Positions 1 to 64,000 of a stretch of DNA of 64,000 bases are shown in pieces. Within the stretch, counting starts at the first letter, position 1. The number at the start of each line of letters is the position of its first letter. The notes beneath the pieces are model-generated. The model was given only the letters and a program-made list of their open reading frames with translations. It was not told the DNA's origin and made no database searches. Source of the DNA: Clavelina lepadiformis (lineage: Eukaryota; Chordata; Ascidiacea; Aplousobranchia; Clavelinidae); NCBI RefSeq assembly GCF_947623445.1, contig NC_135247.1, positions 312,501 to 376,500 on the forward strand, in the 5' to 3' direction. The position numbers and the translations under genes were made by a program.

Positions 1-1413
1 AATTGTAAGTTTGCTCTTACTTTTATAACAACTATCCTGTTATTGCGCACTTGTTTACTTGTCAATACCGTGACAAACTTTATTGCACTAACTTCTTATT
101 TTGTGGTTGATGTGACTGCAAGATGTTTATAAAAAAATTCAAGTAAATTGTCTGTTTCATTTTGAAATGTCGCCTCTTCCTATTATATTTGAAAATAAAC
201 AGTTTGGGTGAATCTCGCTTCGTGGTGAGCGGAGCTTTTGCGAATACCCAGGTCATTATTATAACAGGTGTGAAAGCCAAACCTGGCTGCTCTTATGAGG
301 CACTTAGACCAGGAAAATCCTGAAGTCCGATGAACCAAAATTTGTAACGATCGCTGGTAGCAGCTTCGTCACGGGATCCTCGAATTGCTTTTCAGCCATT
401 TTGACGTCAGCTGTTGCCCAGGTAATGCAGACAATAGATCTGTTGATGGATTATTATCTCCCAGCAACGTTGCAAACAAAAAAAACTTCTAACAATGCTT
501 CGGTTCATCGATCCCCTGTGACGCGTTTAGACAAGTTCAGTCCACTGGCGTTGAAAAGAGCAATGACGGAGCATTATCCGAGTGTTTGGATACGAACAGG
601 CAGGGCCTCATATTTGTCCTGTTAAGCCCAGTCATGTGCTAAACAAACTTTTCCTTATACATTGCGTTATAAGAAATACCTTTAACCCGTATCATCCCGT
701 CGGCTTCTCAACAACGCAGCAAAGAGTAGGAATTTCGCAATAACAAGCCAGGCAGTTAGGGATTTACGGCGAGGACGATTATTCGGGTTCGTGCGAACCC
801 ATAACGACCATCATAGCGGTTGCTCCGAATCTATTCGTATCAGCATCAAGCGATAAAGTTTCATCAAAATCTTGTTTGTGACGTGTAGTAATTGCCAAAA
901 ATTGTTGACCAAAGGGCGATTTGAAAAGGAACATGCTCATTTGCAGCTCTACTCGCGGGACTTGACCGCGAGTCACACCTCATTATTACGACATAATCAA
1001 CATATGCCGAAGTCAATAGATTATGTGTGAAACCAAAAATATTACAGCCAAGGTCATTACATCTTTGACCTTGAATAACCAAAAGAAATTGCAAAACTCA
1101 TCTGATAGGAGCAGCTAGGTACAAGATATAGGCTATGTAATGAAATGGTTGTTTATAGTTCCTTATCCTGTAAGGGCGACCACTTCAATTACAATGTTTG
1201 TCTGTTGAATAGTTTAATGTCCTCGATATAAATGAGCCTCAAGGTCGTTGTTTCGCTTTTCTTAATCTTAGAATTAATTGTACACCTTGACAACTGTATA
1301 TTCTGATTATATTGAAGCTTCTTTGAACGAATACATCAAGATAAAACATTGTGACAGCAACAGCATAAAGACATGTTGCGGCGTTGAACGTCATAGCAAG
1401 AAGATACTGATAA
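1..1413. other. non-coding stretch, no gene seen
   Basis: The short ORFs here have no family resemblance and no splice support. One TGACGTCA word lies at 402-409. I see nothing else that can be called. Confidence 0.6.
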
Positions 1414-1421
1414 GTGATAAG

Positions 1422-2089
1422 TAGGGCAACCAAAAGTCAATATGGTCAATTTTTTTTTACCTGCTCAGAATGCTATGAAACAAGCACAAAACAAATTTCA
1501 GCTTTGTACGACGTGTGGTATAGAAGTTATTAGGTCAGATAAAGTCAAAATGTTACGTTAGGTCAAAATACGGTCAAATTGTTTCGTTAGGTCTTTTTTT
1601 TAGGTCAAAATCTATTAAACTTGTAATTTTGTAACCATTTTGTAATATTATTCTTCCGTTTTTCTCTTTTCTTGTACCGCAAACAATTCCAGTCCCGCAA
1701 ATTTTACTTAGAACCAAAGACACAAAGAGAGGGAAGGCTTTTCAGCGCGTTTGGTGACGTCACGATGTGACAGCATTGCATTTGAAACTGCAAGTTGTCA
1801 ATCTTAATACGCAGAAACGAAAAAAAGTCAACACTAGAAAAGTATTTTGTCATTTTTAAATGCAGCTTTAGATTAGAAAGTTGCTGTAGACAGTGTAGAG
1901 ACTATCAGTATAGCGTTTTTCAAAATGAGGTCAAAATTTAAACGTTTTAGGTCAAAATAAGGTCAAAATGTAAACTTTTTAGGTCAAAATAAGGTCAAAA
2001 TGTAAACTTTTTACGTCAAAATGAGGTCAAAATTTGCAAATTTTAAGGTCAAAATTTAAAATTTTTAGGTCAAAAAACTGGTTGCCCTA
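1422..2089. mobile_element. non-autonomous hAT-type DNA transposon (MITE-like)
   Basis: The element opens with TAGGGCAACCA (1422-1432) and closes with its exact reverse complement TGGTTGCCCTA (2079-2089). It is flanked on both sides by the same 8 bp, GTGATAAG (1414-1421 and 2090-2097), an intact target-site duplication. Eight-base duplications and a TAGGG/CAGGG terminus are typical of the hAT superfamily. No transposase ORF is present, so it depended on enzyme made elsewhere. Both ends of the interior (about 1530-1620 and 1920-2080) carry many copies of GGTCAAAAT spaced by T-rich runs, so the inside is partly a simple array. The perfect duplication suggests a fairly young insertion. Confidence 0.85.
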
Positions 2090-8250: not shown

Positions 8251-9836
8251 TTTCCCCCATTGCGTCACTGATGACGTCATATATATATTTCATAGATTCT
8301 AACTCCCTCCCAGTGTATATTGCTAACGTGCTTGTTGGATCTCTTTCTAATCATGCTTTTGCATTGAAGCGCGGTAATTCATTATAACTTGTTGTTACGT
8401 TATCGCTTGCTTTCGGTCTTACTTGCACTACTATCACCCCCCCTAATTATTACGTCGTCTAATCTTAACTTGCACTTGTGTTATGACTTCATTGACCCTT
8501 ACCTCGATAATTACCCCCCAGGCAGTTTGCATTCAAATTGTGGAACGTGCGATCAAGTTCAGGCGCGTTTGTCGCCAAGTTCTCATGTCATCTATAGGTT
8601 TGCTTTATGTGACGTCATTACCGATCTAGCGGGAATGCGAAATAGTGACGTCATTTTTAGTGACGATGTGTTGATTCTCCTATCGTTTGTCTTAAAATAA
8701 AATTTAACCTCGTAAACGACGCGATGTCAGGAATTCTCGCAACAAACAGAAAGTAAGTTCGCCGAAAAGTGGGAATATAAATAAATGCTGATTTATTGCA
8801 CTTGGCAGAAACAACGACGCCGCTGCTTTGTTCCGTCACAGGCGCAGGATTGATGACGAAACACCTTCGGGCGTTTACACGAGCTCTATTGTGCGTTATG
8901 AGAAGAAAAACGCCTTTTTCTTGCAACTTCTTATTTCATGATTAATTGTTGTCCAGTGGATTAAGGCAGCTCTGTAATCTTTTGTTATTCTGCGCTCAGT
9001 TAAACTTGCTGAGGTTCAAGCTTAAAGCGAAGGCAAAAATGACTTGAAAGAATTTTTTTGAGGTAATTAATCTCATGCTTGCCAACAGAGTTGTAACTAA
9101 GTCGTTTTTCCTAACTCGAGTTATTCTCGTAAAGCTTGCTGACGTCACCTTACGCGGCGCCATAGTTCAAGGTTCAATCGCTAAAGCAGGTTGAATTTGA
9201 CCAAAGAAGATCTGTCAGTAGAGACAACTGATAAGGTTTCTCGATCCTATTTAGATCGGCCTCTCATTTAAGTTACAGACAACCATTGATCTGCGCTGTT
9301 TGAAATTCTGGTTGATGCTTCAGAGATACGAAGCTCGCTTAATTCATTCACTAAGTAGGATCCACGCAAGAAGTTTTCCGACTTCAACTTTTGCTTGAAC
9401 CCGAACAGGTTTGCGGAATATTTCTTGAATGGAAGTATTGGGAGAACCTGAATTAGAGCTTCCTCGGAATCGCACCCGTGTTAAATTAACAGTCAGGCTT
9501 GAGAAAATTCTGATGTTGATAAAAAATCATAATCAGCTTTTTATGATGATGTTTTCTTAAATTTATTGACAAATTTGTCGGCTTGTGCTTGAAACATTTT
9601 ACTCTGGGCGCTAATCTAGTCTTGAGTCAATTCGAATCATTCAATGCAGTGAATCGATTCGACCAGAGTCAATTCGATGACTCAAGTCATTGCAGCATCA
9701 TTGTGAGTGAGTTGATCACAAACCGTTGTGTGCAGGGAGGTAAGACTCATAATGTGACGTGACAATGTATAAAATGGAGGGAAAACTTCTGTTCATGGTT
9801 CTTGTGAGCTGCTTGGGAGGGCGGAAAGGTTTTGAG
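8251..9836. other. stomatin 3' UTR and spacer
   Basis: The stomatin 3' UTR starts here; its end is not clear. Exact TGACGTCA words lie at 8272, 8610, 8646 and 9140. The sequence GTCAATTCGA and relatives recur at about 9625-9685 in both orientations. No gene is seen. Confidence 0.5.
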
Positions 9837-11529: not shown

Positions 11530-12139
11530 TCACCGATTATAATATACATATAATATAATATATACATTACATATACATAATATAATAATATACACAAGCT
11601 TGACCGTGACTTTTCTTCCTGGCGAGATCACCGTCACACTCGCCCATAAAACAAACTCCGACCGGAAGTTGTATGAGTTACCAACGTCATCGAGTATCTG
11701 GAATGACCAAAGCATAAAAATTTTCTTATTCGATCGATTGCTGTCCTGACGTCACTTACTGTGAGAACATCAGAGATGTCTGTGGTGAGGTCAGTTATGA
11801 TGACGAGGACTTGATTATTCTCACTCGCTGTGATCTTCCATTCGCATTGTAGCCTTAACCTGGGAGGTTCTGATGTTGTCGACCTAGGAAACTGAAGCGA
11901 CTCTTCCACATCGGTTGCACTCAGCTGACCCCCGCACCATAAAACAACATCAGTCTGTTTTCAAGGCAACTCGCGCTTCGGCATAGCTTGCGTCTTTGCG
12001 AAAATTATTTTGTTTTAAAATTATTCAAATAATTTAAACTTTTCCACCGCTGTGGAACAGAGTTACCTGCGTCACTTCCGGTGATCATGATGGAAAGAAG
12101 GACGAGGATTCCATGATAGACCAGCAGCGCACATTTCAT
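11530..12139 (-). CDS. secreted or membrane protein with a CUB domain, 3' end uncertain
   Basis: Exon 1 (12139-12067) encodes a signal peptide, MKCALLVYHGILVLLSIMI then TGSDA. Exon 2 (11954-11760) encodes WCGGQLSATDVEESLQFP followed by RLQCEWKI and VLVIITDLTTDISDVLT. This is the CUB pattern: CGG near the start, CxW, and an aliphatic-rich strand with an acidic DLTTD. Exon 3 (from 11697) continues with ILDDVGNSYNF and VTVISPGRKVTVKL, the last strands of the domain. Exons 2 and 3 join in phase 0. Exon 1 ends in phase 1, so its join to exon 2 does not fit and another donor or a small exon is missing. The reading frame then runs into an AT microsatellite at 11530-11600, where the real end is probably a splice donor. 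CUB domains mediate extracellular protein binding. Only one domain is visible, so the gene may be small or only partly found. Confidence 0.65.
11536..11597. repeat. AT-rich microsatellite (TATA/ACAT type)
   Basis: Sixty or so bases made of TATAATATA and ACATATA units. It overlaps the 3' end of the CUB-domain reading frame. Confidence 0.8.
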
Positions 12140-15608: not shown

Positions 15609-16062
15609 GCGCTAACCTTGGCCGCAATATGCCGGATTGTGTTTCACTGAAAGCCTCGGAATGCCTACGTGCAAATTTCTCAATCGCCGAACCACGTTGT
15701 CTTAGGTTTGTTCAAGTAGTCAGCACTTTACCGCCTGGAGCAAACAAACCCGTCCAATTAAAGTCGTGTTTACTCGATAAATATTTGAGCACTCACTTGA
15801 CTGTTGTAATCAGAAATGCGTTCGAGAACTCTCTGATGATATTTCTTCAAAATAAATTGAATGCTACTGGCAAAAAAACAAGGAAAAATTTTAATTGTTT
15901 GCTGCAAGTTTTTAAAAGATACTGCCCTTTTTAAAACCATTTGACAGCAATTATGACGTCATTACAGTTTGTTTCGTCATACTAATTTACTTGTAGCTAT
16001 TGACAACCGAAAAAGATGTTGCTTTGGCCATTTTTTGCTGCAAGATTTTTCTGCTGCTGGTT

Positions 16063-17359: not shown

Positions 17360-20300
17360 GTAGCAAGAACCATGGTTAAATAACTACAAATACTTGAGAA
17401 AAATGAAATAGAAAATTATCTCAAGAGGTAGCTTTAATTTATTGACAGAAAGTTGAGCTTGCTACTTCAGGTTTAGGTGGAGATATTTAAAGTTGCTTTG
17501 CTCAAGTTTGCCAGGGAACAACAAAAGCAATAGTGACTTAACATTCACGTGCATTCAAATATCTATAATGTACTTAGTGACGTAATAGAGTAGTAGACAG
17601 TGGTGTAATAACTATGAAATGAACTGCAGCCAAACTAAATAGGCCAAGATTGTTGTTGTTGTCGGCAATTTTTGTTTTGACTGGTGAAGAACTTCGAGCA
17701 AAAATCGCGACTTTCGCAACGACAACAACCAGCGAGTCCACGTGAAAGGATGATGCTGTGCTTAATAAAAGATAAATTATTAAAGACACCAAATTAGTTT
17801 AAGAAGATTGCGATGGAGCGAGCGAAATTGCCCACTTGATTGGTTAGCCCTGTTTAGCTCATGTGTGGGTAGCCACGTTAAGAAACATAGAAAAACTTGT
17901 GACGTGGCGCCTGATTCACCGCCAAGGAGATCCCAGACAATGAAAATAACTAAATTTGTTTAGTTAATGATTTACCGGTGACATCTCTGTCAGTGAATAG
18001 TAAGCAATTTTGTTCAAACCACTTTAAAACTTGGCGCGAAACAGAAGTGGAATGACCGATGCACTGGTGCCCGGGTCATCAAGGTTTTGTTTTTCACCAA
18101 ACACAAAACGAGTCGATGATTTGAAGCCCCGATAAAAGTTTTTAAACGAAACCCGAAGCCACTAAGCGATGTCCTGGAGATCGATGTCTTGTCAATCACC
18201 TCCGTCATCATCCTGTAATTCCCGCAACCATTGTTGGGTCATAATTGCATCTTTCGACGCAAAGAAGTGGAACGAATCTCGAAATAGTCTCATTGGTCCA
18301 CAAGCGTTCTTCAACTATAGTTATAACCTGACACGAAAGGAGAACTATTGAAGACGTCTTTCCTCTTGTTGTGAGTTGCTAAGCAACCGCGTCAGTGCTT
18401 TATTCGGTTTGTTCAAATCTTTCCACCTTGAGCGAGTTTATTTTTGGCGAAATTCTATTTTGAGAGGGGCCAGTTTAAATATATCTCAGGGCTGAAAGTC
18501 TAAATTCGAAATAATAAGTTGAACAACACAGCCGTGAATTAACGTCGATGTCACGTCGTCAAACAAGCCGTCTGTGATTGTGACATCACTACGTTTCCCG
18601 GCAGCGTTTTTTTACCTCATAATTTCCGTTTATCGCCGCATAATTGCTGGTTATTACCTGGTCATACGCTGTTAATCGCGTCTTGGTGAATGGATCCTGC
18701 TCAAATCTAAATAATCAGCGATTAAACTTAAACAGTCGATGACGATGACGTATGTGTCTTCCATACAAAGCTTGTAGGTAACAATCTAATTATGACTTCA
18801 CAATGATATAATTGACTTGAACTAGCTCAGCACCGATGTAGATATTTATATGAACCAGTCAGGGTGAAAATCGCTGGTTTTATATTTTTAAATTCAACCC
18901 TTTAGAACGGGTTCTTATTCATCGGTTGCTAAATATACCACAACAACTTTTGCATTTGGATGATCGTCACATTTCACTGCACGTTCAACTCAATCGTGAC
19001 GTCATAATACGTTATGTGACAGCACAACCATGGTTAAAATTGAAATATTGGTCGTGTGCAACATAATGGCGCTTCTGCTTGGTGATTGTATATTGGTCAT
19101 TGTTAAGAAATTCCTGTTTATAAAAATAGTCAAAATTTCCTGCGTTTATCAATTTTCTTATAATAACAGCGACGTAGTTTGGCGAGGACAATCTTAGAAT
19201 GTGTAAAAGTTTCGTTCTCCAAGAAAATTCTGCTGAATGGGCCGAGTTGCTTTGGCTTTGACAATTTCCTGTCTGTGCTTTGTTCAAATCAGAGCGATAG
19301 TTGTTCAAGTTTTATAAAAAAATTTGCTTTCGTTCTCATGTGGTGACCCCGAAACGACTTTCTCAGTTTTAAAATAAGAGTTAATCATGTCAACTTTGAC
19401 GTCATTACCTTGTTTGCAGTGAATGTTCGTTTATTACCGCATAATTAAGTTGCAAAGAAATAGAAGTTGGACGACTATTGAAGGGTTAACTTCCATATTT
19501 GGCTGCACACTTTCTTTCTGTCTTATTCACACAAAAACAAATATGGCATTCGATGACTTACACGTGAAGGCTTGTTACGTCATAATGGTGATGGCCCCTG
19601 ATAAGCTCACAGATGTTTTCTGTCGTGTTCTTGTTCGATAAGTTAAGTTAATAAACTGGTCAATTTGCAAGTCCATTGCTTGGAAGTAGATTTATGATTG
19701 AAGAAGTGTTCGTGTAAAAACCAGGAGAAGCTTAATTGCTCGCTGCACGCTCGGCTGCAGGTTGTGGCGCTGCAGGAACCGAAAATTTTCTTTGTTGAGC
19801 CATTTTGTTCTTTGTTTGTCATCAATGGAAGACGCGTGATTCATACAGTTTCACCGACGACGACTCTTGTTATAAAAATAACCTCAGCTGACTCACCCAC
19901 ATGTTCAACCATCCATCATGGGTCGATCCTAATTTCCCAAACCTTTTGTTTTTCAACAAATTCCCTTTTAGTTACATCAGTGACGTCATAAGTGAGTTTG
20001 TACAAAGCGCTTCTAATTCTCGTCAATCCATTCTTGTGACTCACGTGACTTAAAGAAAGCATTGTGATTAAATAAAGCCTTAAACAGACTTGTTGAGAGC
20101 GCTTCAATTCTTAAACTTCGTGTTAAAAAATTATTGGTCGAACTTTTGCTGAAGATCTGTTGCGCGATTGGATGATCTTTTGCTCAACATCATGTTCACT
20201 ATTCGGTAATAGCGCATGATTATGACGCCATAATGGAAAATTATCGCTTTAAGCAGCCACGTCAATTTCCCTTCGGTGTTTATTTTGCGATTTAATTTGC

Positions 20301-21346: not shown

Positions 21347-21660
21347 ACTTCACATCGATAAAATGTTCTTTAGAAACGATCGTATAAATATTGCACAGTG
21401 GCATTCGACCTGGCACAGCGCATCGCGTTCGCACGTTCCGTTACTACTCGAATAATAATTCCCCCTTAACCTGGGAGGTCGTTTAAGAGCGGAAAGATTT
21501 CTCCATTCTCTCCTTGCCTACGGCTACTTGGCTAAATTCTATTGTGACGTCATTGAGTCACATTTGTCTCGCCTAACTTAGCGTTGAAACTATTTCGAAG
21601 GTCGCCCGAATGAGGCTAGGAACGCTTCATGTCGGTTCTCCTTAGTGCACCGCCCAAGCA

Positions 21661-24325: not shown

Positions 24326-24366
24326 TTTTATATATCACGTCGGGAAAAAAGCGTTGCGTGACGTCA
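24326..24366 (-). promoter_or_regulatory. putative RGS gene promoter: TATA box plus CRE-type TGACGTCA
   Basis: On the minus strand TATATAAAA (24334-24326) lies about 90 bp upstream of the RGS start codon. A perfect TGACGTCA (24359-24366) lies 25 bp further upstream. CREB/ATF factors bind this palindrome. Because the word is so common in this window, its meaning here is uncertain. Confidence 0.45.
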
Positions 24367-34444: not shown

Positions 34445-34597
34445 CTTTAATTTCTCTTTTTATTTCTTCTTTACTTGAGAAAACTTTTGCACAGATTTGA
34501 GTTGAGCAATGACGTCACTGGAGGACGGTGGATCGGCGCGTTCAAACGATATAGTCCTCCATTCTCCAAGCTTGTCTCTGGTGTTACGTCACCGTCA

Positions 34598-35867: not shown

Positions 35868-36279
35868 AGAACGAGAAGCCTCAAGCGCTATAATTGAAAA
35901 CGGGGCCTGGCAATCTTTCTTTTGTTTGCTCTGTTCAAATTTTTAGTTCGAGAAATATTTGTGCCTCAACTTTTAGCTTGTTCGCAAGTTGACGTCACAG
36001 AGAGAGGACGACGTTGACGTCACTTTCCTGGCATGGACATTCCGGCTGCGAACGCGTCTATTTTGCTTCGCGTAGTCTGATGAAGACTTTGGCCATTATT
36101 GTCAAACAGATATTTTGTAATTTTTAATACAAAATTGGCGAAAATACAGCGGCATAAATAAGATGAAATAAATAAATATGGAAGCGAATCTTGAAGTTGC
36201 TTTCATGCAAACGAAGGAAGATGTTGTCACTTATGTGCAAAGCTACGCATTTTGCAGTGGATTGTTTCGTCATAATCGT

Positions 36280-46798: not shown

Positions 46799-46804
46799 AA
46801 ATAA
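46799..46804 (+). terminator. poly(A) signal of SEM1
   Basis: AATAAA 38 bp after the SEM1 stop codon. Confidence 0.7.
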
Positions 46805-48997: not shown

Positions 48998-49017
48998 CGC
49001 ACTTTATTTTTTCATTC

Positions 49018-49023
49018 AATAAA
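49018..49023 (+). terminator. poly(A) signal of ZNHIT6
   Basis: AATAAA 20 bp after the ZNHIT6 stop codon. Confidence 0.75.
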
Positions 49024-52000
49024 ACAAATCTCTCGTTCCGTTGTGTGGCGCTGTTCAGAAGACGAGGTCGTAAAGTTCAAAGCTGAATTTCTTGCAAAGA
49101 TGCCCGTTTATGAACCATCACTATGAGGCGTTGATCTCCTGCTACAGTGAGGGTTTGCGAAGTCACATTTGATGAGTTGCAATATTTTTCCATGTAAATT
49201 GCCAAAGTGAGGAGTTGAACCCCACAAAATGTTCCCCCTCGTACGCGGATGATTTGAGTGAAAGTTGATTGTGATTTGGCAAATTTGTCTGTGCTGTGAA
49301 TAGAAGTTAAGCATCAGATTTACAAACAGGAGCCAGTAGTGGTCGGGCTCTGAGGCTCACATCGCTGCCGCTGTGATATCTCTGAGCAAGGTTCGGGCAA
49401 AGCTTGCTCCTGGCGAACAGTTTCAAATTCGAGAAATATGAAAAAAGTCATCAGAACTTGCGCAAATACCAGTTCGGCAACTGGGGTTCGAGCGATGACT
49501 GATGAGTGAACGCCGGCCAGAGGAGAGACGAAGCCGACAGTTGAGAATTGAGTTGACTAAGAGCCAGTGTCGGCCATCTTGCTTGCGCGCATCCATCATC
49601 GAGCCCTAACTTCCACATTTATAAAAGTTAATTTCTTGGACCTAGTTAACCACATATGCTGCGGGCTTATCGACTGACTACATATTCATTAAAGCTACAT
49701 TCTTGTTTTCAGCACGCCTTGGAAGTGTAGGCCATGCCACGTGTTACAGAGTGCAGGTATGTTCACGTTTATTTTAACCAGAGACATCTAGTTAGAAATA
49801 TTTGTTCAATTTCATTCTTAAGCGATTCAATGAAAATTGTATCCGCTAGGTGGTACAGCTGAGCCAACTTTTTGCTCAATTAAAACCGAAATAAAAATTT
49901 GTCTCGGCTCCATTATTGCGTAATGAATCGGCACAAATTTAAGCAATGAGTTCTAAAATTAACTTCTACCGATCCCGTCAATATTGTTGTTCATTTATGA
50001 CTTCGCCGGGATCTTCTGTTGTTCTAATCGTCGCGGAATGTGGCGATGTCAGCCAATCACAACATTTGTCGCGAGGACAATTATGACAAAATAAACGCTC
50101 GTTTGTTTGCTCGAAGCCATGTAATGAATTTCTTGTAATTGTTTGGCTCGATCACAAACCGACCAGTGTTGCGACTCATTCGATGGACCGAGATTAATCT
50201 TTTATTCTTCAGTCAACGTCACAGATCAATGATTTCCACATTATGACGTAATGTACGAAGGAGCGGTGAGAAAAATTCGAAGAAGTCAAATATTCGTCCA
50301 TCGTCGCTGTCTTGTCATAATATTATCTCTGTCGCTATTTTTGTCGCTTTGTTTATGATTGTCACTAGTTTTGGAATACACACAACTTATTGTGATGTCA
50401 CACTCGATCATGACAAATGTATTCTATATCTGATTGGTTGCCATGGTTACGGGTTTGTTTGTGCGAGCAAGCGCCGATAAACTTTGAGGAAACATTTCAC
50501 TCCGTTAATAGGGTCATGACCTTTCCACTCCCGGAAGTTTCCACGTGCGATTGCATTTATGACGTAATAATCCAAATAGGAATAGAAATTGAACAACCCG
50601 TTTGTGGGTAAAAAGTTTTCGCTGTATCCTGGCGTTGTCGTCATAATCAAGTCAAACGTCATCAATACTTTGAAGAATCCCGATGAAGCTCGCTGCCCCA
50701 ATCTCCCGCCACCAACTCATTTTTGATGCTGTGTATGCTTGGGGAATCACCCACGTAGCTACTTACGTCACAATGGTACGCATTAGATAGAAAAACTTAC
50801 CTTTCTTCGCGTTTTTCTAAAGAAATTGTTTCAGCTTGCGAGTTAAAATTGTTAGTCGTGAAAAAAATTTTGTTCGGTTTAGTCAAATTTTTCTTAAACT
50901 GCCTTTAGCTTTGTCCCTACCCCCTTATGACATTTTGACGTCATAAACCTCAATGGTGGACAGAATTTAATCCATCGTTCCACGATGGGCCCAACATGAA
51001 TCTCGAGTGCTGTGTTGGAAGCTGACAGCGCATTTATACCGCAGCCGCCATGTTTGGTCCCCCTGCTTCCACGACCGACTCCAAATATTTTCCTATGCTG
51101 ATGCAGTGCGTGCCTCACGACCTTAGTTTTGCATTATGACGTAAGAAAGATTAGATATTGAATAAAACCAGCATTTGACGATCATCTCCAATCCATTACA
51201 CTTACGTCACTACAATGTTCGACAACGTAATAATAGAGAAGTTCGATTTTGAGGGTCTTCAATAATTCGAAATCAAAAATCGTCGCACAATTTTATTGAC
51301 ACTTTTACTCCGTTGAAAAAATTCCCAAAAAATGTGATTATTCCAAATAAGCGCAAGTTGTCTGGTCCGCTTCCTAATGTAGCATTGTTCGCTCATAATG
51401 GGCTGATTGTTATGGATTGATCTGGTTAAGCCTCTGTGTAATAAAGCGTAACGTACACAAACACTGGCCAACATGACGAAACAATAGAAGCAGCAGTTTT
51501 TATTTTCACTGAGTCTGAGCCCGTGTTTATGCTTCCCTTGCACCAAGCATTATGACGTCACAAGTTGAGTGTATAGCTCATAAAGCACGTTTTGTTGCTA
51601 ATTTTTATCAAAGAATCGTTAAAGGTTGGCGAACGGTCAAATGAGAACAGATTGTTGGTATGACGTAGAATTTGGTTTGAGGAATTTTGTCTTCGGTGAA
51701 ATTGGATTAATTAATATTTTCCGATCGTCGCAGCTGCTTGCATTGATGTTCGCAAGTGACGAAACAATAAGTATATTATGACACATAATAACAGCATATA
51801 TGGCGTGTAGGAAAATGGTTGCTTTGGCAAATGCCTGATCCGCAAAAATTGCGAAAAGTGATTCTTGTGTTTTTAGTGGCGTTACAATTGATGTAAGGGT
51901 GGGGACGTTGGCCAGTGTTAGGTCACAATTGTTGGCCAGTCGCCAACGGTCATTAACATCTGTGTAAAGTCAATAAACTGGAATTAGCGTTGGAATGCGG

Positions 52001-53875
52001 AAATGACCGTTTGTGAGTCACCATCCTAGTTTGTTTATCATAAAATCATTTCTCGTATTTTTATTCGCTTCCACATTTGCCAAACTACTTTAGTCGTTCT
52101 ATTTCGTCACAATGAAAGCGCCGGTGAAATAATTTGAGAGAAAAATTATCTAACAATCGTTTAAAAATCTGATTTGAATTACCAGCAGTGCTTTGATGTT
52201 AATGGTTAGACACTTTTTATGTCAACTTTGAGTCGCTTATTTGGAACAAAAATTGTCGTCTGTCGAGGAAATCTCTTTATTGTGATGAATGAAGTCTCGA
52301 GCGTCCTAACACGTCTGTCGCACCGCGATGGTTTCATTTTGAAAGTGATTTATCTTCAGACAGCTTCAAATTTTTCCACAAAACCTGTTTGTTACGCTTG
52401 AATAGGTTTTAATAACTCGTCACAGTTGAGCGATTATGGACCTCTCAGCGATATCATTGTGCACGGCTCGATCCTTCTCACAAATAATCGCGCGTTTTGC
52501 TTCGAAAGTTTATTTTTAAACAACTTAAGCGAGTTGTTAAAGTTCTTGCCTCGCGCTTTCTTCTATTTTATTGTATTCATTTCAATTTTAATCCTTGTAC
52601 CGGGAATTAAGAAATATCTGAAATTGGTTGTGGCACGTCCGGTCGCGAAGTCGCATATTTCCGCAATTTTTCGCCTTGAAACTGCTGTTTGTGCTCAGCT
52701 CACAAGATCTGGTTCTGCTTCGTTTCTTTCGTCACAATTTAGTTTCTCAAACCGAGGAAATGACTCGTCACGCTCCGGTTGTTCCCGCATCGTAATTTGA
52801 CTTAAAACGTCCAGGTTTGAAATAATTGTTTCGTTGAAAACGTTTTTAACCTTCCCTTCAATGTCAGGAAATCTCCCTGTAGCTTGTCCTCTACCGTCCC
52901 TTGTTCCAGTCCCTGGCTCGACCAGAGCATCACGTCGCAGACAATTTTATCATTTTATGTTCGAAAGGTGAACAAGGACGCACAAAAATACAAAATAAAT
53001 AAAACAAATTAAGAACTTTCCAAACCGCTACATCTAAACTCATGTGCATATGCAGAGAGATGAAAAAATTGGAAAAATAATTGCAAGTGGCGACATAATT
53101 GTGACGTAATAATGCGCTTTTCTGTCGCTCTCGCAGACTATTAGAGATGAAATTTTTATGGGAGTGAATAATTGAGAAATCTTTCAAGGAAATATTTTAT
53201 CGGGAAATTCGATGTAAATTCCTCCGCGGGTCGTTTCGTGCAATTTAAACTTTATATTTTGGTCGGAGGCCAAGCCCTTTAATGACATCACAATGATCAA
53301 GTCGAAACTTGAAATTCTTCTCATTCCAACAACTGATGAAATGTGAGCCAGCGATTTGGAGTGAATAACGACTTCATTTGGTCTCCTGATTCAATTATCT
53401 CCGAGTTGAAGGTGAGATCCCGTCATTAAAACTCTCAAGTGTCAAGGTCACGTGCCATTTCGTCATCATCTCTATGATGGGGTCGTTATGGCAACGTTAG
53501 TGTCGAGTAAATAGGTTGACCTCACTTGACCCTGCTTTTCATTGCGTAACTTTGTTGCGAAATTAAAGAAGACGACAAAATAATTTGATCTCGAGGGCGC
53601 GCGCGTTCAAACCGCAGTGATGAGTTAATTATCTTGTTGTTGCATTGTCACGTAACAATCACAGCTGCTTCTTGCAAGATTAATCTGTGGCCTGGACAGG
53701 AGGATGATTCTGTTGACTGCAAACGTCGGTGCGAATGAATGGGTGGGGCCGCCTTGGGTAGCTCGGAATGTTTTAGCGTCAGCCGATGTCTGGCTTCGTC
53801 ATTTTATGAAGGTGATTGATGAGGTCACTCAAGGTCATGGTGAAGGTCACTCGAGTAAGGTTTTATGACGTCACG
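49024..53875. other. spacer without supported genes
   Basis: Several chance-length ORFs (for example 52426-52800) have no family or splice support. TGACGTCA reappears at about 50937 and 51552, and again at 53867 at the 3' edge of CCN gene C. Confidence 0.45.
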
Positions 53876-55795
53876 TTATTCGACGTTATTGTCGTTTTCG
53901 CGATATTTCCTCGCGCCATCGTCCCGGTAGGTGTCAGCATAGAGTGGAAAGGTGAAGACGCCTCGGTCACTGCGACCGGAACAGTTGCTATGACAGCGAC
54001 ATTTCCTGATGAACATCATCCGCTTTGAGAATCGCGTCCCATCGCGCTTCCGGAACCAGATCTTCCTCGTCTTTGTCTTACTTGGGGTGCAGCACCTAGA
54101 CAAGAGGATTAAGCACTCTTCTTAATTGCAATCACCTGACAATATTTAGTTTTCTTACTTTGTGACGTCACTGCATCCTCCGCAAAACTTCATTTTGAAT
54201 TTCTTTTCACTTTTTGCGCCAACATACGTCACTTCCTGTCGCTTGCTGGACTTCATATGACGTACACATCGGTGTTTCCCCTGAAACGTAAATTTCATTA
54301 CAATTTTGTGACAAAATATTTTATTTTGCTTCGGTTCTAATCGCTACGTCATTCGCAGATGATCAGACTTTGGGCGGAAACCTTTTTCTGTTCAAGATCT
54401 AATTTCGACGCCGTTAATTGTGACACAATAAGCTGCACTTGTGACGCTTCAATGCTTGCCTGGAGCTCAATGCGTTGTTCTATTTCTGGCCGATTGGTCT
54501 CAAATTAACTCGTCATATTTAATTGAATTGAGTGCAATCGCGGTTTTAATCGATTCTTCGCAACAATTCTGAAATCGCGCGAAATCGTTCCCACATCTGA
54601 CAACTTTGTCAAAGGCTACGTCATAACTATTCTGCAAGAATCCAAAATACCAACAAAGTTTATCTGGAAACATGTCATCATCATTATTTCGGAATAAGTT
54701 GGTTTACTCGCTATGACGTCACGTTATATGCTCGACATTGAAACAGCTCCTGCCAATCATTGACGGTTTAAGTGCAGCCCCTGCGCAAATTGTTACATAA
54801 CAATGCCTGTATTGTGCTTGAACTCTTTAAATTATCGATTAACGAAATTCGATTGTTTGCTGTCGATTGTTTTTGTTCAACGCTTGTCCTACACCGTCCA
54901 ATGTTTTCCTTCGATTATGATTCAACAAACAAACATTATGAGGTCACGCAAACATGACTTGTGAATAGAATTGTGACGATTTTCGCACCCGCCCGATATG
55001 ACGAGGTGATTATGACCGAACAATGCTCCCTTTCATTTTATTTTGTTGACAATCAGTTTGCTGGAATGCTGATCACGTGACATGAATGTGGTGTCAATCA
55101 GTCTGTGATTGTTTGCGAAACTACTTACTTAATTATGACGCAATAACACTGTTTTGCAGCTTTGAAATGTATAAATTTGAAGACATTGCTCATTGGACAG
55201 CTCACATTTTCATCTGGCTTTTCGATTTAATATGACGTCATAATGAAAACAAACAATTAGAATAAAACCTGTTTCCTGAGAAATTTATTATTTGAAAAAC
55301 TTCGGGTTCTGAATCGTGAGTCAGCGTGAGTCAGCGGGATTGAATCGAAATTTTCTTTTAATTTCCCACTTTTTCGACGACCCCGCGATTTTTCGCCGTG
55401 TTGTAGCTATTTATGACTTAGCCAGAATTCTCGAGCAAAGATGAACCAGAAGTCGAAAAAAAACTCACCGAGGTCGCTACAGCCTCGTCACAAGGCCTCA
55501 CCGCGCATAACCGCGCTTCGTTCTTCAACTTGCATCGCCCCTTCGTCTTCACCCTGGTCGACACCCCCACCCCGCAAGACTTGGTGCAGGCGCTCCAACT
55601 CGACGTCTGTCGCTTGCACGGAACTTTCGCGCGGTCTGACTTCCTGCGCGACTTCGCCCAGCACGGATGTGACGTCGACATCAAAATGATAAAGACAAAA
55701 AAAGTCAATAGCAGGGAGGTCCTCCCCGGCCGCCGCCATTTCCAATTCTTTGTTCTTTTACCGCAACCTCCCACGTCATGCTCAGAGTTCTTCAT
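53876..55795 (-). CDS. CCN-like protein C, short form (signal segment-TSP1-CT)
   Basis: Exons 55795-55469, 54280-54159 and 54095-53876 join in phase to give 222 aa. The first exon has its own ATG and a hydrophobic signal or anchor segment (TSLLLTFFVFIILMSTSHPC) after about 26 polar residues. TSP1 follows: TSSWSACTKSCGVGVSTR and RLCAVRPCDE. Exon 2 has the exact 122-bp length of the fifth exon of genes A and B and begins the cystine knot (GKHRCVRHMKSSKRQEVTYV, FKMKFCGGCS). Exon 3 ends it (KCCTPSKTKTRKIWF, FIRKCRCHSNC). No IGFBP or VWC exon is present upstream as far as gene B. The usual Gly-Cys after the first knot strand is Gly-Ala (YVGAKS), so one knot cysteine is lost. It may be secreted if the signal is cleaved, and is likely derived from a full CCN by loss of the front half. 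Confidence 0.85.
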
Positions 55796-58393
55796 TATGA
55801 CGTCAAAGGAGAGTCTGCAGCTTGTATTATTATGATTATGACGTAAATAACAAAAATTATAACTTTACAAAATTCTAGAGGAGCAGAACCTGAAAGTTCA
55901 CAGAGATATTAACTGCTTTGTTGAGACCAAGTCGCTCTGTGCTCATATTTGATTATGATGTCATCCTCGGTTTCACCCGCCGGTTGCCATGACACCCACT
56001 GAGTGGAAAGTCTCTTGTTGATTGAAAATAAATTTAACTTCTGCCAAAACTGCCACTGACACTAATAACTTGACACCTCGACTATACCACGGAATATGTT
56101 GCTGTCCTCTGCGGGAACTGAGCTTGTTTATTGCGGCACATATCGCATCAAACGACCGATGTCGGGTTCTGGCTAGGTGTAACCCTTCGTTCGAGAGCGA
56201 AGAAAATGGAAAAGCGGTCGTGAGTTTTTCGCTTTTGTACCTTCCAAGTGCGTGGGAGTTCATCATCTGTTTATCGACCGCACTTCCCTGGAAAAGCAGC
56301 TCACGATCGTGGCCTGGTTGCTCACGATCGTGGCCTGGCTGCGCTCTTTTAGTTCGATTCTGGCGCACTTCAACATTTTTCTGCCAAGAAAGTGAACATT
56401 TGTCACAATCGCTCTTAATCGCGGCTTAAGTCGCCCCTAATTCGATTAAAAAAACACTTTCCGGATTTAAAAAGGGAAACGGAGCATTGTTGCTTCGAAT
56501 CACGTTAAATTGGCGGAAACCGATGCAATGTTGCGGGACGAGATAACAGCAAATTAGGACCTGATCTAGAAATCGCGCCAACTCGCAGTTAATTAGTCAT
56601 AGATCTTGTTTACTTCAAATTCTTTACTTCTTGTCGGGCTTTTTAACGCACTTCTCGCTTTTCCCTTTTCGAAAAATCTGATCGTTGTTGGAATAATTTC
56701 CGCGATTTTTTAACCAAGCCACCGCACTTTTAAGTACCAGTAGTCGCCCATGACGTGATGGTGAGCTATTTGCATGAAATTTGGCAGAATTTGAAAATAT
56801 TTGTTGCCAATTTCTGTCACGGCTGGTACCTGCCGCCACACGCCATCAATTACAAGATGTTTGTGCGGGGGAGCCGCATTCCTGGTCTGCCGACTGCTCG
56901 GATGTCGCTGATGCCCGAAACGAGATTTTTGCGCGAATAGATTATTACGACATAATAGATTGTTTGTGTCGTTACAAAAGAAAACCCACCTGTAACGATT
57001 TGTTCGAATATTTAGCTGAAACATTTCGAGTTTTCTCCAACGAGGTTGTCTTTCTACTTCTGGCGGCCGCTAACGAAACAAATATTCGAGGAATGCGGCT
57101 TCGGCGCTACATCGAGCGATTACCGAGTTGTTTGCAGAGTCAGACCAAATTGGCCCCGAACGCCAAACACAAAACGAGCTTGTTTGTTGTGAAATGCAAT
57201 TTAAGCGCCCCACCACTCCATTAGCGTATCGAGGAACTGAAATTATGACATCACAGTCACAATCGAGGAGGCAATTTGCGAATTTTCTCTGATTAGTCGA
57301 CGAAGCGCTTCCGAGATAACTTTCAACAAAAATAAAGAAGCGACCACGGAACGTCGACCTCATCATTATTATCACGTCATCACAGACTTTATCCAATTGC
57401 ATTTGATTATGCAATGCGACGTTCATGAATGATTATTACGTCACGATGGTGTGCGGCAGTTTTTATTTCTCGCTGATTATTCTCCTGGTTTTTACCAATT
57501 CGAGTCAGAAATTGAATCGTTTCCTTGCGAAGCATCGTTTCGCAAACTTGTTTGTTCATAAGCTGGCTGCGTTTCCTTTCTTCACGCAACAATCGTGTTT
57601 TGTTACGTCGAGACCACGTCACAATTACAGTTCACGCACCATTTATAGAAGGTTGGTCGTGGATGGTTTGATTTGTTTATAAGAAAGTGTCGAGTTTGAT
57701 CGCGGGCTCATCGCTCAAGCAGCGATGAATGGGCAGGGTGCTTATACTTGACCCCAACCCCGACCCCCTTATTTCAACACAATCCGTACTTTCGCGTCTG
57801 CAGCGCCTTTCAATTATGATATCACAATAGATACATTTTTACGGTTTGCGTGACTGGGTAAAATGAATCTATTTCTGGAATAATTCAATTCTAATATTCT
57901 TGAGTTTCTTGTTCGCTCGGAATAAATCGAAGCTCGCTATTTTTCAATTATCCAACCAGCCTGGCCGGTTATTTACAGACAATGCGGTGAGCCAGGACTA
58001 TGCTTGCCTACATACTAACTTATTATTTTGGGATTACAGAGTAATAATAGAGCGCGTGCTGCGATCATTGCTTATTGTGATTGTTTATTTCATTTGAAAA
58101 GCTTTGGTATGTGGCCAGATGACGGAAAACACCAGTTGACAATTTTGTTCCAAAAATCCTGCTCCACAGCGTCAAGTAGCGGATTAATTTTGTCGTCAAT
58201 AAACTTGACCAGACGCATTAAAATGCGACTAAAATGCTTCATTTCCCTCGCTCATTATGTTGTTTATTTGTGAACCCTGGGATTCAGTCAACAGGAATTA
58301 ATTCTGATAATGTGATTGTAATTCAACAGAAAATCATTTGTTGATTAACTTTGCTCTAGTTATTACGATATAGTCACGTTTATAACGTCATAA
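55796..58393. other. spacer between CCN gene C and the following plus-strand gene
   Basis: No supported gene. A 19-bp unit (GCTCACGATCGTGGCCTGG) is tandemly doubled at about 56301-56339. Searching the minus strand by eye showed no IGFBP or VWC exon for gene C. Confidence 0.45.
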
Positions 58394-58992
58394 ATGCTAA
58401 AAGTTTACGGGGAATTACTCAGTGAAATCTGCTTCGTCTCAAGTGAAATTGTGAGCAATGAAATAGTTCCAGGAGCGAGCATGATGGGAGACGCTCTCAC
58501 GTGCTGCCGCGTCGCAAGGGACCCCTCCGGTGATAGTGACGTCAGACAGGTAGCAGAAAAGGAAGTTGAACTTTTGGTTATTAAGGAGCATCCGCAAAGA
58601 GTGAGGCGGCGATCATCCGTGGCTCCGTCCACCGCACCGATCAGGGAAGATAAGGTTCTGGAGGAGTTGTGCCAGTCATCAAACATCGAACCCGAGGTAC
58701 CGGCCAACGAGATGAAGTCGAAAGATGTCAAGAAGTTGGTCAAGAGGATCTCACTCTCGGGGAAGTTCGCTTCCATCGGCCGGGAAGTGGTTCTAGAGCG
58801 GATGCAAGACTCCGACTCGATTGAGTCCACATCGACCTCAACTCTCAAGAGGAACAGGTAGATACGTCATACACTATCACGTCTGGTGCAGTCGCGCGAG
58901 TTGTCAGCCCGACTTCTTGTCTTTTCTGCAGCGCTCTACTTCCGGACGACGAATCATTAGATAAAATTCTCCGCTCATTGGAAAACCTCTAG
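58394..58992 (+). CDS. two-exon gene of unknown function lying between CCN genes C and B
   Basis: Exon 1 (58394-58857) and exon 2 (58932-58992) join through a GT-AG intron of 74 bp in phase 2 to give 174 aa. If the second ATG at 58481 (MMGDALTCCRVARD) is the start, the length is 145 aa. The protein is hydrophilic with no membrane segment. It contains a basic phosphorylation-like site (VRRRSSVAPSTAP), a Lys-rich stretch (MKSKDVKKLVKRISLSGKFA), a Ser-rich stretch (DSDSIESTSTSTL) and an acidic-hydrophobic end (LLPDDESLDKILRSLENL). No family is recognised. The GC-rich, codon-like texture and the clean splice make it believable as a real gene, transcribed opposite to its CCN neighbours. Confidence 0.65.
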
Positions 58993-59948
58993 TCTCATCC
59001 AATTTACTGTGAACCTGGTTCGATCTATGCTACGTCCAATGTTTGTAGAAATTCGAGAAATTGAAATTCTTTTTCTCCACAATGAGCATTTTTATTGAAA
59101 ATGAAACAATTTCCGGCTCCCGTTTATATATATCTATGACGTAATAGTTACAGTTGCGCGCTTCGAACATAAAGTTTAGGTTTACCTGAACTATTCCGTG
59201 TTAACGATTGATGATGTATGTGGGTTTCAATTAGCCATGTCAGAAGGTATGACGAAATAATGTAAAGCCAGAAGCTTGGAACAGAGGCTTGTTGTTAAAA
59301 GGTCACGCTTCATTGGTTCAGCTGTCATTGGTCGAGCATGCAGCGACGCGAGAAGTTCTGGAAGCTCATTGTTCGCTTTGTCTTTGGAGTTTCTAATTAA
59401 GGGATAATCTTGACAAGCGGATGCCGCCCTGACAGCTTCTGGCACATCCGAGCACTCGTTTCAACTGGACGGCGCGTTGTCGTCGTTGTCGGGCTCGCTT
59501 TGAAAAACTCGTTTGTTCTGGGAATCACGTGACCGAGAAAGCGATTTTTACGCGCGATATTTTATTCCTTAAATAAGTTCGACGTCACAATCAAGTGTGA
59601 AACTTCATCAACGACGTCATAGGTAATTACTCCACTGACAATCGGTTTGCGTTTTGTACAACTTTACATAGACATCACATAAATACGAATAAGAACTTTT
59701 GTGGCTTGCTAATGGGGAAGCCCCACGAGAAAACTCATTAGAGTCAATTACGTTCGAATGAATCTTAAAAGTGAAATGTGAAAACAATTTAAAATAATTT
59801 TTTCGTGTGACGTCATTATGCTTGCAGCTGAACGTCATCAGTCGTTGCCACGACGATTCCATTTTCGTTTATGACGTATTCTCCTTCTGATGATACTTCC
59901 GGCCGCTGCCAACTTTTTTATTTTTATAAGCTGCCTCTGATTGGCTAG
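58993..59948. other. spacer
   Basis: No gene is seen. One TGACGTCA lies at about 59809. Confidence 0.5.
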
Positions 59949-62900
59949 TTACCGGTCACGTGCTACATGCATGTCATCAAACAAGGAATATCGAACAACC
60001 GTTGGCGTTGGCGTCGGTGCCACGCAGTTCTTGTGGCAGTGGCAGCTGCGGATGACCATGATTTTCTTGGAGAAGATTGCGCCATCCTCACATCGAAATC
60101 TTATGTGAGCGGTGCGCGTCGTCTTTGGAGTGCAACATCTGTATAAGATAATGCCGCTTGGTTACATCATTAGTATGACGTCAAAGGAAATAGCTTTATG
60201 TCATAAATGCATTAGTTTATTGTTCGCTCACCTTCCGTCTCCATGGCAACTTCCACAGAATCTTGGTCTTATCTTTTTTAAGCTCATGCACCCGGCATAC
60301 TTAACGCTCATCCGTTTCTTTGCCCGCTTCTGACGTAAGCAATGACGTCCTTTCTGTAAAATGAGATGTTGATTGTTGGGTTAAGCAGCGAGTGAGGTTG
60401 AAATGATATCCTTAATGTCCAACCCCGCACACCACTGAGGAGATGTGCAGATGATAACTAGCGCCTTGTGCCCGCAATTTTTTCTCGATCGGTCGCGTGT
60501 CGACCAACTGTGACGTCATTCGCGGATTAGTATGTTGAAGGTCACGTTCATCGTGTTAAGGTCAAGTTTCTCGGAAAGTTCAAGTTGCGCTCTAGCGTTT
60601 TACCACTCACCTTGGGCAGGTAGCGAAGGTCGTTGCAGGGTTTGAACTCGCATAACCTCGTCTCCCTGGCGAGTTCGCATCTTCCGTTGTTGTTGCTGAC
60701 CCTGGCCGACACCCCCAGCCCACAGTTCTTCGAACAGGGACTCCATTGTGACGACTTCGCTTGGCAGTTTCTCCGTCTCTCTAGCGCCACTTTTGCTGCG
60801 TGGCGGTGAACTGAAATACATGTCGCCAGGTCACGTGATGTTTAAATGAACTCATTTAACCAGGCTTAATGTGCCATTTGTTACGTCACGCCTCGGTTGT
60901 TTGCAAACAAAAGGGTAATTGCTTTTTAAAGTGCCGGTTTGTTGTCGGCGGTTGTAATTCAATTTAATTTCGAAATTCGAGCGTCATTTTCAGCTGATCT
61001 GCAATTTCTTGTCCTCATTCTAAATCACCTTTTCCCCTGTCACGTGACTGTCTGTAACAGGCGGCGAAAGATCGAAATTCGCGGAAGAAATCGCGAAAAT
61101 ATTTCATCTGCACCGACCCGCGCCACCCTGCGAGGTGGACAAATGGTCACAACATTCTATAATTATTAATTTCATATATTCATTCGAAATTTGTCTCGCG
61201 ATGCGGTTGCCAAGATTCCTCTGGAACGTCGACAGATCGCGATTAAACGCGACGCAATTCATCTCATAATCATCTACTCTAGCGGATCGACGCGAAATAT
61301 TCAACTTTTAAGTTTCCTGACTCCCCGATAATTATCTACGATAATTGCGGGGTCACCAGGTGATAAGTCCTGCCGATATTTTACTTTTTCAACAAAAATA
61401 GCAACAAGGTGGTAATAAAATAATAAATCCTCGATGTTGTAACGACGCGGTGTACGTTTTGACGCTATGAATTCGTATCGAGCATCGAGCGCGGGATTGT
61501 TCTGTGTGTTTTGGTTTTCTGCATTTCTGTTGCAACGTACCGAGTCATTTTGATCGACGAGTTAAATTATTTCTTCGGACCATATGACCCACTTAACCCC
61601 GCGCGGTTTCGATGTTATCGCCGAGCTTCTTTCATTTGGAGAAGTATCTACTCTACACGCTCATTTTTAGGCTCAACATAAAATCAACACAACAGAAGAT
61701 TCTTTCTACGTGGAACGAGGAACCATTTCTCGCGCAAAACTCGCGCATTCCCTCTGTGCATAGATTTAAACGCGATGTCCGCGCAATTACGAGATTTGTT
61801 CAAAACAATCTATACTGTCGTTCTATTGGCTGAGCTGAACTTATTTTATCAACCGCACAGGAGGCTTCGTCTTCATGAACTTTCGTGGAAATCAAAATGT
61901 TTTTGAGAAAATTACGAAACTCGGAAAAGAACTTTTGCTAAAAAATTTTCGCCCAAATCCAAATCCAAATTGCTACAAGCTCCAATCACGAGCTTCTTAT
62001 GAAACTAAACGAGCACGCTATGATTATGACGCAACAATGTAAACGAGAACTCACCAAAGATATCGCCGGGGAGAAGGTTGTTTTGGTGCCAACTCTCTTC
62101 CAAGTTCAGCTCAGGGTTAAAGTTCATGGTCTGTGTCATTTGATAGCCGAGAAGGTCGTCCGCATTTTCGCCGACGTCATCCTCGTAGATGACCCCGTCC
62201 CTGACCCCGTTGCCTACTTCCGGCAACAGATTTTCAGACGGGGCATCCCCTGATTTGACATCAACGTACTCATCCCAAAAGTTATTCAGCGAAAGTATGG
62301 TGATATCACCCGATGACGTGTCGCACGCCCATTGGTCGCAGCATTGTCCGGTTACAGGTTGTAATCTTGCGTTGGGGCAGCGATCCGGCCTGGGGAGTTG
62401 GGTTTCGTGGGGGCACAGGGGGACGCACCCTATGGCCCCATCCATGCACCAACATCTGGTCTTGCACGACGGTTCGAACATTGAACCGCTTGAAATACGA
62501 ACGTTGCCATGCCAACATGGTCTTCCGGTGCGCGCTGCAGAGAGAAAAACAACATTATAATGTTACATTGGGCAAAAGTTTTTGTATATATTGAAGGCCT
62601 TGACAGCTTTACTTAAATGACGTGATATTTTTTTGATGTCATCAGTTGCGCAATCCATCGTCACAATGATATAATGGACGTGTCAATGTTTTATTGGGTA
62701 CCAGGTACATCCATTGCTTATCTCTGGACATCGACCAATTCTCACGTCTTGCGCCTAATTTGAGAGTCAGTTACCTGGTGCGGATGCGTTTTTCGTCAGG
62801 AAGTTTGTTGCTACTGTGACGTCACCACTAGTCATCACTTATACATTATTTAATCACTTTAGTCGAAAGGGGTGCTATTTTATGACATCACAAGATCCAC

Positions 62901-63250
62901 TCACCTCTACAAATTCCGATGTCGCCGCTTCTGGACGCGGAATGGTCGCAGAATAAGTTCCTGTGTACGTCACATATTGCGTCATCGCCGTTGCACTGTT
63001 GGGCGAGTTGTTTGGCGCAGACCTTGCAGCAGTTGCAGCCGTCCATGACTAGGCTGACCCCGGCTGGACAACTGCTCGGTTCCTCCCTGCAATCGCACTG
63101 GTACGGACACAGCGAGATCGCCTGAAAGTGACGTCATATTTTATCACAAACACGCTGCAGTGTGTTTTCAAGTCATCGTTACGTGCTACTTACGTGATGA
63201 AATAAACAAAGAAACAAACAGAATGAGACGATATTGATTCTTGCTGCCAT
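59949..63250 (-). CDS. CCN family matricellular protein B (IGFBP-VWC-TSP1-CT)
   Basis: Exons 63250-63194, 63121-62905, 62534-62055, 60810-60611, 60353-60232 and 60138-59949 join in phase to give 421 aa. Exon 1 is the signal peptide [19 protein letters not shown]. Exon 2 (IGFBP, 217 bp) has the same length as in gene A and about 98% DNA identity. Exon 3 holds VWC ([20 protein letters not shown]) and an acidic linker different from that of A. Exon 4 is TSP1 ([26 protein letters not shown]). Exons 5-6 are the cystine knot ([51 protein letters not shown]), then a short Thr-Pro tail. The intron between exons 3 and 4 is long for this window (1,244 bp). It is a secreted matrix or growth-factor-modulating protein by family. 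Confidence 0.95.
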
Positions 63251-64000
63251 CTTGTGTGCGGTTTCTTTAACTGCACAGCTTTATTACGTAATAATCAGCA
63301 CCTAAAACAGTCTGTTCTGCAAAACTGACTGGAATGAGTTCTAGAATTCAAACGAAAGCCGCCTGCAATTGCATTATGCATTATGATGTCACGATCATTA
63401 TTATTTTGTCACATACCGAGACACATCAAAGCATTTGAAAAACCGATCCTGCAGAGCGCTAGTAGGTAGAACCCGATGTTTTTAAAGTGGCCGCGTATAA
63501 TGGTTTCCTTCCATAAATAATCCGCGTTAATCGCGATCAACCCGCCGCCATCTGTGGAAGCGGTCGCCTTCTAACTGACTACGACGTTTATTTTGCCTTT
63601 CGACGTCGCTTCAGCCAAATTACCACTTTTGGATAAAAAAGTTTGTCCAAGGTGAGAATTCTGAAATATCCTCGCTTTATAGAATGCGCTCATTTTAACT
63701 CTCGACGAAAAGTCGCGAAAAACGCCGCTTATTTTGCAGCCAAACTACTAATTTTTTTCCAGACGTCGCCTCGGTTTTTACTGCAAAGATCTAAAATAAG
63801 AAGATTGCTTCTTAACTGCGATTACGTCATAATCTACCTTCCTAAATCTCGCAAATTTCCAACGACCTTCTGTTTCCAGCACCACCGCCATCTTTCAATT
63901 TTGAGTAAAAATTTCTCTCAAACTTTCAAGTGATTTCATGACAAGCTACTTGTAGTTCAACTTCCTTAAATGACCTCATAATCGATCCAAAACCTTTATT
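63251..64000. other. spacer upstream of CCN gene B
   Basis: The presumed promoter of CCN gene B lies here. No clear TATA box or gene. A plus-strand ORF at 63643-63933 is Lys/Ser-rich without domain support. Confidence 0.45.

Follow-up and report, generated by a model that had tools for sequence, protein, structure and literature searches.

Excess, setting and possible binding of a CRE-type palindrome in the genome of the ascidian Clavelina lepadiformis

Genes and palindrome copies in the window

The stretch of DNA analysed here, which we call the window, comprises 64 kb of chromosome 8 of the ascidian Clavelina lepadiformis (C8:312501-376500). The C8 contig begins with N followed by a CCCTAA telomere array of about 6 kb (L009:2501-8645), which is a real telomere, and the window therefore lies 0.31-0.38 Mb from the chromosome end. 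Our genome counts covered 209.06 Mb in 95 contigs, the nine large contigs being the nine chromosomes; Table 2 of the source for the published assembly gives 210.1 Mb, 102 scaffolds and nine chromosomes (PMC10884593). Exons in the window belonged to CCN-type genes (VWC and TSP1_CCN matches), with one RGS exon and one sulfotransferase exon besides. Pfam matches at E 0.01 were obtained for 7 of the 20 open frames scanned, one VWC match in the window fell slightly below the Pfam cut-off, and no RNA families or tRNAs were found there at default thresholds.

The window contains 45 exact copies of TGACGTCA, an 8-bp palindrome that forms the CRE core. The initial annotation of this DNA had claimed more than 40 such copies, which our count bears out, and all 16 of the coordinates that it listed were off by no more than one base. 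The copies, all exact and unstranded matches, are as follows:

402..409, TGACGTCA copy
1755..1762, TGACGTCA copy, the sole one within a detected repeat
8272..8279, TGACGTCA copy
8610..8617, TGACGTCA copy
8646..8653, TGACGTCA copy
9140..9147, TGACGTCA copy
11747..11754, TGACGTCA copy
15954..15961, TGACGTCA copy
18997..19004, TGACGTCA copy
19397..19404, TGACGTCA copy
19981..19988, TGACGTCA copy
21545..21552, TGACGTCA copy
24359..24366, TGACGTCA copy
24705..24712, TGACGTCA copy
25736..25743, TGACGTCA copy
26150..26157, TGACGTCA copy
26651..26658, TGACGTCA copy
27583..27590, TGACGTCA copy
29884..29891, TGACGTCA copy
32735..32742, TGACGTCA copy
33441..33448, TGACGTCA copy
34107..34114, TGACGTCA copy, opening a group of six in 1.9 kb (34107-36022)
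34246..34253, TGACGTCA copy
34510..34517, TGACGTCA copy
34910..34917, TGACGTCA copy
35990..35997, TGACGTCA copy
36015..36022, TGACGTCA copy
38105..38112, TGACGTCA copy within the ORF of a VWC exon of a CCN-type gene, absent from the paralogue
38557..38564, TGACGTCA copy adjoining the splice donor of a CCN exon; the paralogous place, 62883, reads TGACATCA
38803..38810, TGACGTCA copy adjoining the splice acceptor of a CCN exon; the paralogous place, 63129, is also TGACGTCA
39196..39203, TGACGTCA copy
39838..39845, TGACGTCA copy, followed by 11 kb without exact copies
50936..50943, TGACGTCA copy
51553..51560, TGACGTCA copy
53866..53873, TGACGTCA copy
54163..54170, TGACGTCA copy
54714..54721, TGACGTCA copy
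55233..55240, TGACGTCA copy
55798..55805, TGACGTCA copy, 2 bp upstream of a probable start codon (minus strand) of a CCN-type frame
58537..58544, TGACGTCA copy in an open frame to which no Pfam family matched
59808..59815, TGACGTCA copy
60176..60183, TGACGTCA copy
60511..60518, TGACGTCA copy
62817..62824, TGACGTCA copy
63129..63136, TGACGTCA copy, paralogue of 38803

The 11-kb gap without exact copies (39,846-50,935) consists mostly of bins of lower GC or CpG, and no preferred spacing stood out among pair distances up to 300 bp. We also noted in the window a 10-bp minisatellite, ACAACAGGGT, of about nine copies (21255-21347), and three runs of 11-14 C (27966, 37763 and 39925).

The CCN-type genes lie in tandem, and two of their stretches, 38248-38487 and 38550-38815, match 62309-62548 and 62876-63141 at 97-98% identity while the introns are unalignable, a pattern that looks like recent gene conversion limited to exons. 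Paralogous sites in the duplicated exons differ by in-place substitution: the palindrome was kept at 38803/63129, stood against TGACATCA at 38557/62883 and was not kept at the paralogue of 38105. We dropped the last site as a case of single substitution because its paralogue deviates at several core positions, yet its position in a VWC-exon ORF confirms that the word also falls in an exon of a CCN gene, as had been claimed. The 266-bp CCN match has a site at each of its ends; since these also adjoin splice borders, we do not claim that conversion tracts end at the word.

Excess of the word and anatomy of its copies

In 200 dinucleotide-preserving shuffles of the window, TGACGTCA occurred 1.15 times on average and 4 times at most, and Markov models gave expectations of 1.2 (order 1), 1.7 (order 2) and 8.0 (order 3). 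An order-6 model expected 40.8 copies, a figure of little weight, as sub-words of the word itself go into such a model. Markov models cover the window only, and the genome-wide comparison was made with reversed and neighbour words: the whole genome held 19,339 sites, a total that includes a tandem array on C1, vs 4,891 for the reversed word. Counts near expectation, the outcome that the initial annotation had set against its own claim, were found at neither scale. Density in the window was 0.70 per kb, about 7.6-fold the genome mean of 0.093 per kb.

Ranked by z, TGACGTCA tops all 8-bp palindromes of the window, the runners-up being TCACGTGA (13 copies vs 1.2 expected) and AAATATTT (22 vs 4.2). 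Among all window 8-mers it is outranked by CCCCCCCC (16 vs 0.08), owing to three runs. Oligo-C was considered as a second fission yeast hotspot word and rejected, as the CCCCCCCC excess comes down to these runs and the yeast word is given as CCCCGCAC (PMC6827382). Stretches chosen by motif density (the window, L014 and L016) had the TGACGTCA family as the most enriched, followed by oligo-C, again with three runs, and TCACGTGA (15 vs 1.6); the AP-1 word TGAGTCA was hardly raised in them (19 vs 12.8). The cold set was made up of 12 C8 stretches and eight loci of other chromosomes, with L009, L012, L015, L019, L020 and L022 left out, and two of its members, L031 and L033, turned out to be dense. 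As a separate observation, TCACGTGA is a second palindrome with an ACGT centre, found at 3849, 3917, 12498, 20041, 26628, 28389, 28459, 34681, 41628, 55073, 59525, 60831 and 61040 of the window; a related bZIP and a bHLH protein are candidate binders.

The copies share a short symmetric consensus. On both sides of the core, the 45 window copies prefer a pyrimidine (C or T) followed by two A and, less strongly, T, which yields TTRTGACGTCAYAA, and a set of 104 copies showed the same flank. This anatomy bears on the idea, raised in the initial annotation, that the copies are debris of a tiny repeat family. The copy number, the symmetric A/T flank and the copies carried by the tandem array on C1 would suit such debris. 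Past about 4 bp, however, the flanks of the 45 copies are no more alike than those of random sites (mean identity 0.279 vs 0.281), and the most alike pair, at 0.56, fits the CCN gene duplication. Just 1 of the 45 copies lies in a detected repeat, the screen being partial and marking 2,398 bp as repeat. In this comparison with random sites the copies did not align to one longer consensus, and information stopped at about +4, so that no consensus longer than the word, as for a short interspersed repeat or MITE, was found. We therefore give descent from a short repeat family next to no probability.

Distribution along chromosomes

HIP1 is the highly iterated palindrome of cyanobacteria, 8 bp long and far above expectation genome-wide, in coding DNA as well. 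Like it, TGACGTCA is an 8-bp palindrome found far above expectation through a genome; HIP1 differs in being bacterial and of another sequence, and we know of no regional gradient in HIP1 like the one described here. The genome-wide excess of the Clavelina word is strongly regional. The initial description of a genome-wide iterated motif thus stood as to the excess over the reversed word, and has to be qualified as to its evenness, since the density of the word is greatest where GC and CpG are high and near chromosome ends.

The gradient was seen with four 16-mer forms of the word, which had 43, 22, 99 and 62 places genome-wide vs 0, 0, 1 and 1 for their reversed controls (tandem duplicates, such as a trio on C4 at 18-kb spacing, counted as they stand). 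Sixty-three of the 226 places lay less than 1 Mb from a chromosome end, a zone that makes up 8.7% of the sequence (binomial p=5e-17), and the ratio of observed to expected places fell from the end inward through 3.67 (0-0.5 Mb), 2.75, 1.58, 1.38, 0.64 and 0.54 to 0.46 (beyond 8 Mb). Neither control word was enriched at the ends: the first had 8 of 100 places within 1 Mb among the matches listed (103 places in total), and the second, a CpG-containing word with tandem clusters on C7 and C9, had 1 of 37. The gradient is a statistical one. The four 16-mers differed in it (21 of 43, 4 of 22, 18 of 99 and 20 of 62 places within 1 Mb), of eight 3-kb samples from other chromosomes, each 300 kb in from the contig start, four had no TGACGTCA, and on C8 the stretches at 50, 100 and 200 kb, which are closer to the end than the window is, had 1, 0 and 0 copies in 10 kb.

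Short words mark the pairing centres of nematodes, and the end gradient could likewise point to a structural mark of chromosome ends, in which a bZIP or other protein would bind arrays of TGACGTCA and organise subtelomeric domains. We consider this very unlikely, given that 163 of the 226 16-mer places lie more than 1 Mb from the ends, that some end samples have no copies, and that the copies form no array and keep no preferred spacing.

The density of the word also followed base composition. Across 110 bins of 2.5 kb, TGACGTCA density correlated with CpG observed/expected (o/e; rho 0.51) and with GC (rho 0.52), and in a joint Poisson fit both predicted it, GC more strongly. The bins came from the window and L009-L036, three L009 bins having been dropped (N, or telomere repeat without G); L001-L008, which had been retrieved via TGACGTCA itself, were excluded from these counts and from the flank counts (104-copy set and YAA flank). 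Methylation decay was rejected as the sole cause of the clumping: TGATGTCA was raised in six of seven CpG bins and GC was the stronger predictor, so that such decay would explain at most part of it.

GC often tracks recombination, and its lead over CpG is one of several points that favour recombination-linked biased transmission. Here, a meiotic bZIP complex would bind TGACGTCA and gene conversion would favour the alleles that carry it, possibly because breaks avoid the bound chromatid, which then acts as donor, with copies building up where recombination is high, that is, at chromosome ends. The fall of the observed/expected ratio towards the interior and the presence of copies in coding frames are in line with this, and the same core is a fission yeast meiotic hotspot word bound by Atf1-Pcr1 (PMC6827382). 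On the other hand, conversion is expected to erode any word that attracts breaks, and drive on TGACGTCA would therefore need a sign opposite to the yeast case; the unequal gradients of the four 16-mers and the samples without a copy near contig starts also speak against it. We regard biased transmission as the chief alternative to the reading favoured below and give it a small but real probability. A further reading, a eukaryotic highly iterated palindrome kept by motif-biased gene conversion and piled up at recombination-rich ends largely regardless of gene function, strikes us as decidedly unlikely. The question has wider interest, as the word bears on the possibility that a protein recognising a specific sequence spreads its own site by way of recombination.

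Neighbour words, flanks and putative binding

Under neutral decay, single transitions are expected to be the commonest neighbours of a word. Measured against this rough model, transition neighbours were not raised in the window (TAACGTCA, 3 vs a background of 2.4; TGGCGTCA, 2 vs 1.7), and transversion neighbours were strongly raised (TTACGTCA, 41 vs 2.4; TGAGGTCA, 15 vs 1.7); the counts of CGACGTCA (9 vs 1.7) and TGATGTCA (17 vs 3.5) are compatible with neutral decay. Near relatives of the word are thus as frequent as the initial annotation had held, TTACGTCA/TGACGTAA foremost. Genome-wide counts per strand were 10,675 and 10,725 for TTACGTCA, 3,992 and 3,903 for TAACGTCA, and 8,871 and 9,240 for TGATGTCA vs 4,880 and 4,956 for the reversed word of the last.

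The flanks differed with the core. A YAA flank accompanied 40 of 102 halves of the weaker core TGATGTCA vs 45 of 208 halves of the full core TGACGTCA (Fisher p=0.0017, in a post hoc test picked after the flank data of the 104-copy set had been inspected). Four control palindromes had it at 0 of 8, 0 of 8, 5% of 22 and 4% of 28 halves. At 5 of 16 halves, TAACGTCA, which is presumed to be poorly bound, speaks against a clean split. A strong flank on a weak core is the pattern expected if sites are retained according to binding strength.

These data tell against a plain mutational word, one of the options in the initial annotation, since the one-mismatch spectrum and the TGATGTCA flanks look like binding specificity. 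A mutational or compositional word without any binder would fit a density that tracks GC and CpG. The word nonetheless stood at about 10 times the local Markov expectation, CpG included, where CpG o/e was 0.5-0.85 (5 copies vs 0.5 at 0.5-0.7, and 6 vs 0.6 at 0.7-0.85), and at 30 to 50 times where it was 1.0-1.3; reversed and CpG-containing control words behaved otherwise, and the commonest neighbours were not transitions. A binder-free word is, in our judgement, most improbable. For one transcription-factor word to combine a 30- to 50-fold local excess with a gradient along chromosomes is unusual in an animal.

The core, variants and flanks of TGACGTCA resemble the specificity of ATF/CREB-type bZIP proteins. 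The word has the CRE core together with a bZIP-like tolerance of variants, seen in both the neighbour spectrum and the flanks, and the spectrum matches what we take to be bZIP preferences. It shares with the CRE, the site of ATF/CREB-type bZIPs, both the core and the tolerated TGACGTAA form. We found bZIP domains at 20 distinct, scattered places in the genome and rejected an expanded bZIP family on that account.

With modest confidence we favour a reading in which thousands of independently arisen bZIP sites have been kept through putative binding, probably as general accessibility or regulatory elements. It comes close to the chromatin mark among the options of the initial annotation. The reading draws on the excess, the shortness and symmetry of the flank, the neighbour spectrum, the YAA flanks of TGATGTCA, the in-place substitutions between paralogues, the link with GC and CpG, the fit of core, variants and flanks to bZIP specificity, the 20 bZIP places, and ascidian literature that agrees with it in part. 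Each copy would be an independent recognition site for an ascidian ATF/CREB-type bZIP dimer, with TTRTGACGTCAYAA as the full site and TGACGTAA/TTACGTCA as the chief tolerated variant. Copies would originate by point mutation, in exons as elsewhere, and those that are bound would be over-retained. They would accumulate in GC-rich stretches with undepleted, probably unmethylated CpG, more commonly towards chromosome ends, and would most likely act in open chromatin as general elements of accessibility or regulation rather than as classical promoter CREs. From sequence and literature we thus infer the bZIP identity of the binder, its binding in vivo, the methylation state and the accessibility role. 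Accessibility alone leaves the end gradient unexplained, and the reading is further weakened by the lead of GC over CpG as a predictor, by the decay-compatible counts of CGACGTCA and TGATGTCA, by the YAA flanks of TAACGTCA and by the placement of the Ciona word mostly outside minimal enhancers.

In vertebrates, promoter CREs concentrate in the last 150 bp before the transcription start. The Clavelina word differs from them in that it exceeds expectation about 36-fold across 64 kb, is graded along chromosomes and is probably not tied to promoters. That the copies might be classical promoter CREs of many genes is suggested by the canonical CRE core and by the copy that sits 2 bp away from what is probably a start codon. 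The six copies in 1.9 kb (34107-36022) are too many for one per promoter, and in the plots of PMC1796609 the CRE shows no start-site bias in Ciona, fly or worm, and shows one in the six vertebrates plotted. We regard the promoter explanation as extremely doubtful.

Retention through binding finds partial agreement in published ascidian work. Where notochord enhancer regions of Ciona were compared, TRTGACGTCA was the sole significant motif. A single 1.8-kb region had ten copies, and most copies fell outside the minimal enhancers; in the Cnot11 minimal enhancer, however, the motif overlies an AP-1 core that is needed, and in another notochord enhancer a CREB-like site was dispensable (PMC11001920). 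This is the same extended word in another ascidian, described in those enhancer passages for a few regions and not as a genome-wide word (PMC11001920). CREB sites are also reported in constitutively accessible elements of Ebf in Ciona (PMC6952182), and a YACGTMAY motif, labelled Atf1, is given as common to the gastrula open chromatin of deuterostomes, Ciona included (PMC11240583). In fission yeast, the M26/CRE site has the same core (ATGACGT), is bound by an ATF/CREB dimer, opens chromatin and raises recombination at single sites (PMC6827382). Build-up of TGACGTCA in Clavelina would need the opposite bias. Among titles and abstract beginnings, with few subscription papers covered, we found no description of TGACGTCA as a genome-wide iterated or end-enriched ascidian word.

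CRE-type words thus occur in ascidian enhancer regions and are not always needed there. TGACGTCA offers a sequence-only handle on how general open chromatin is marked in ascidians, and motif studies in these animals may need a background that includes it, or else risk calling it an enhancer motif. Finally, TGACGTCA recurs exactly every 62,675 bp at about 0.32-0.47 Mb of chromosome 1 (L007 and L008), revealing a large tandem array close to where this chromosome starts.
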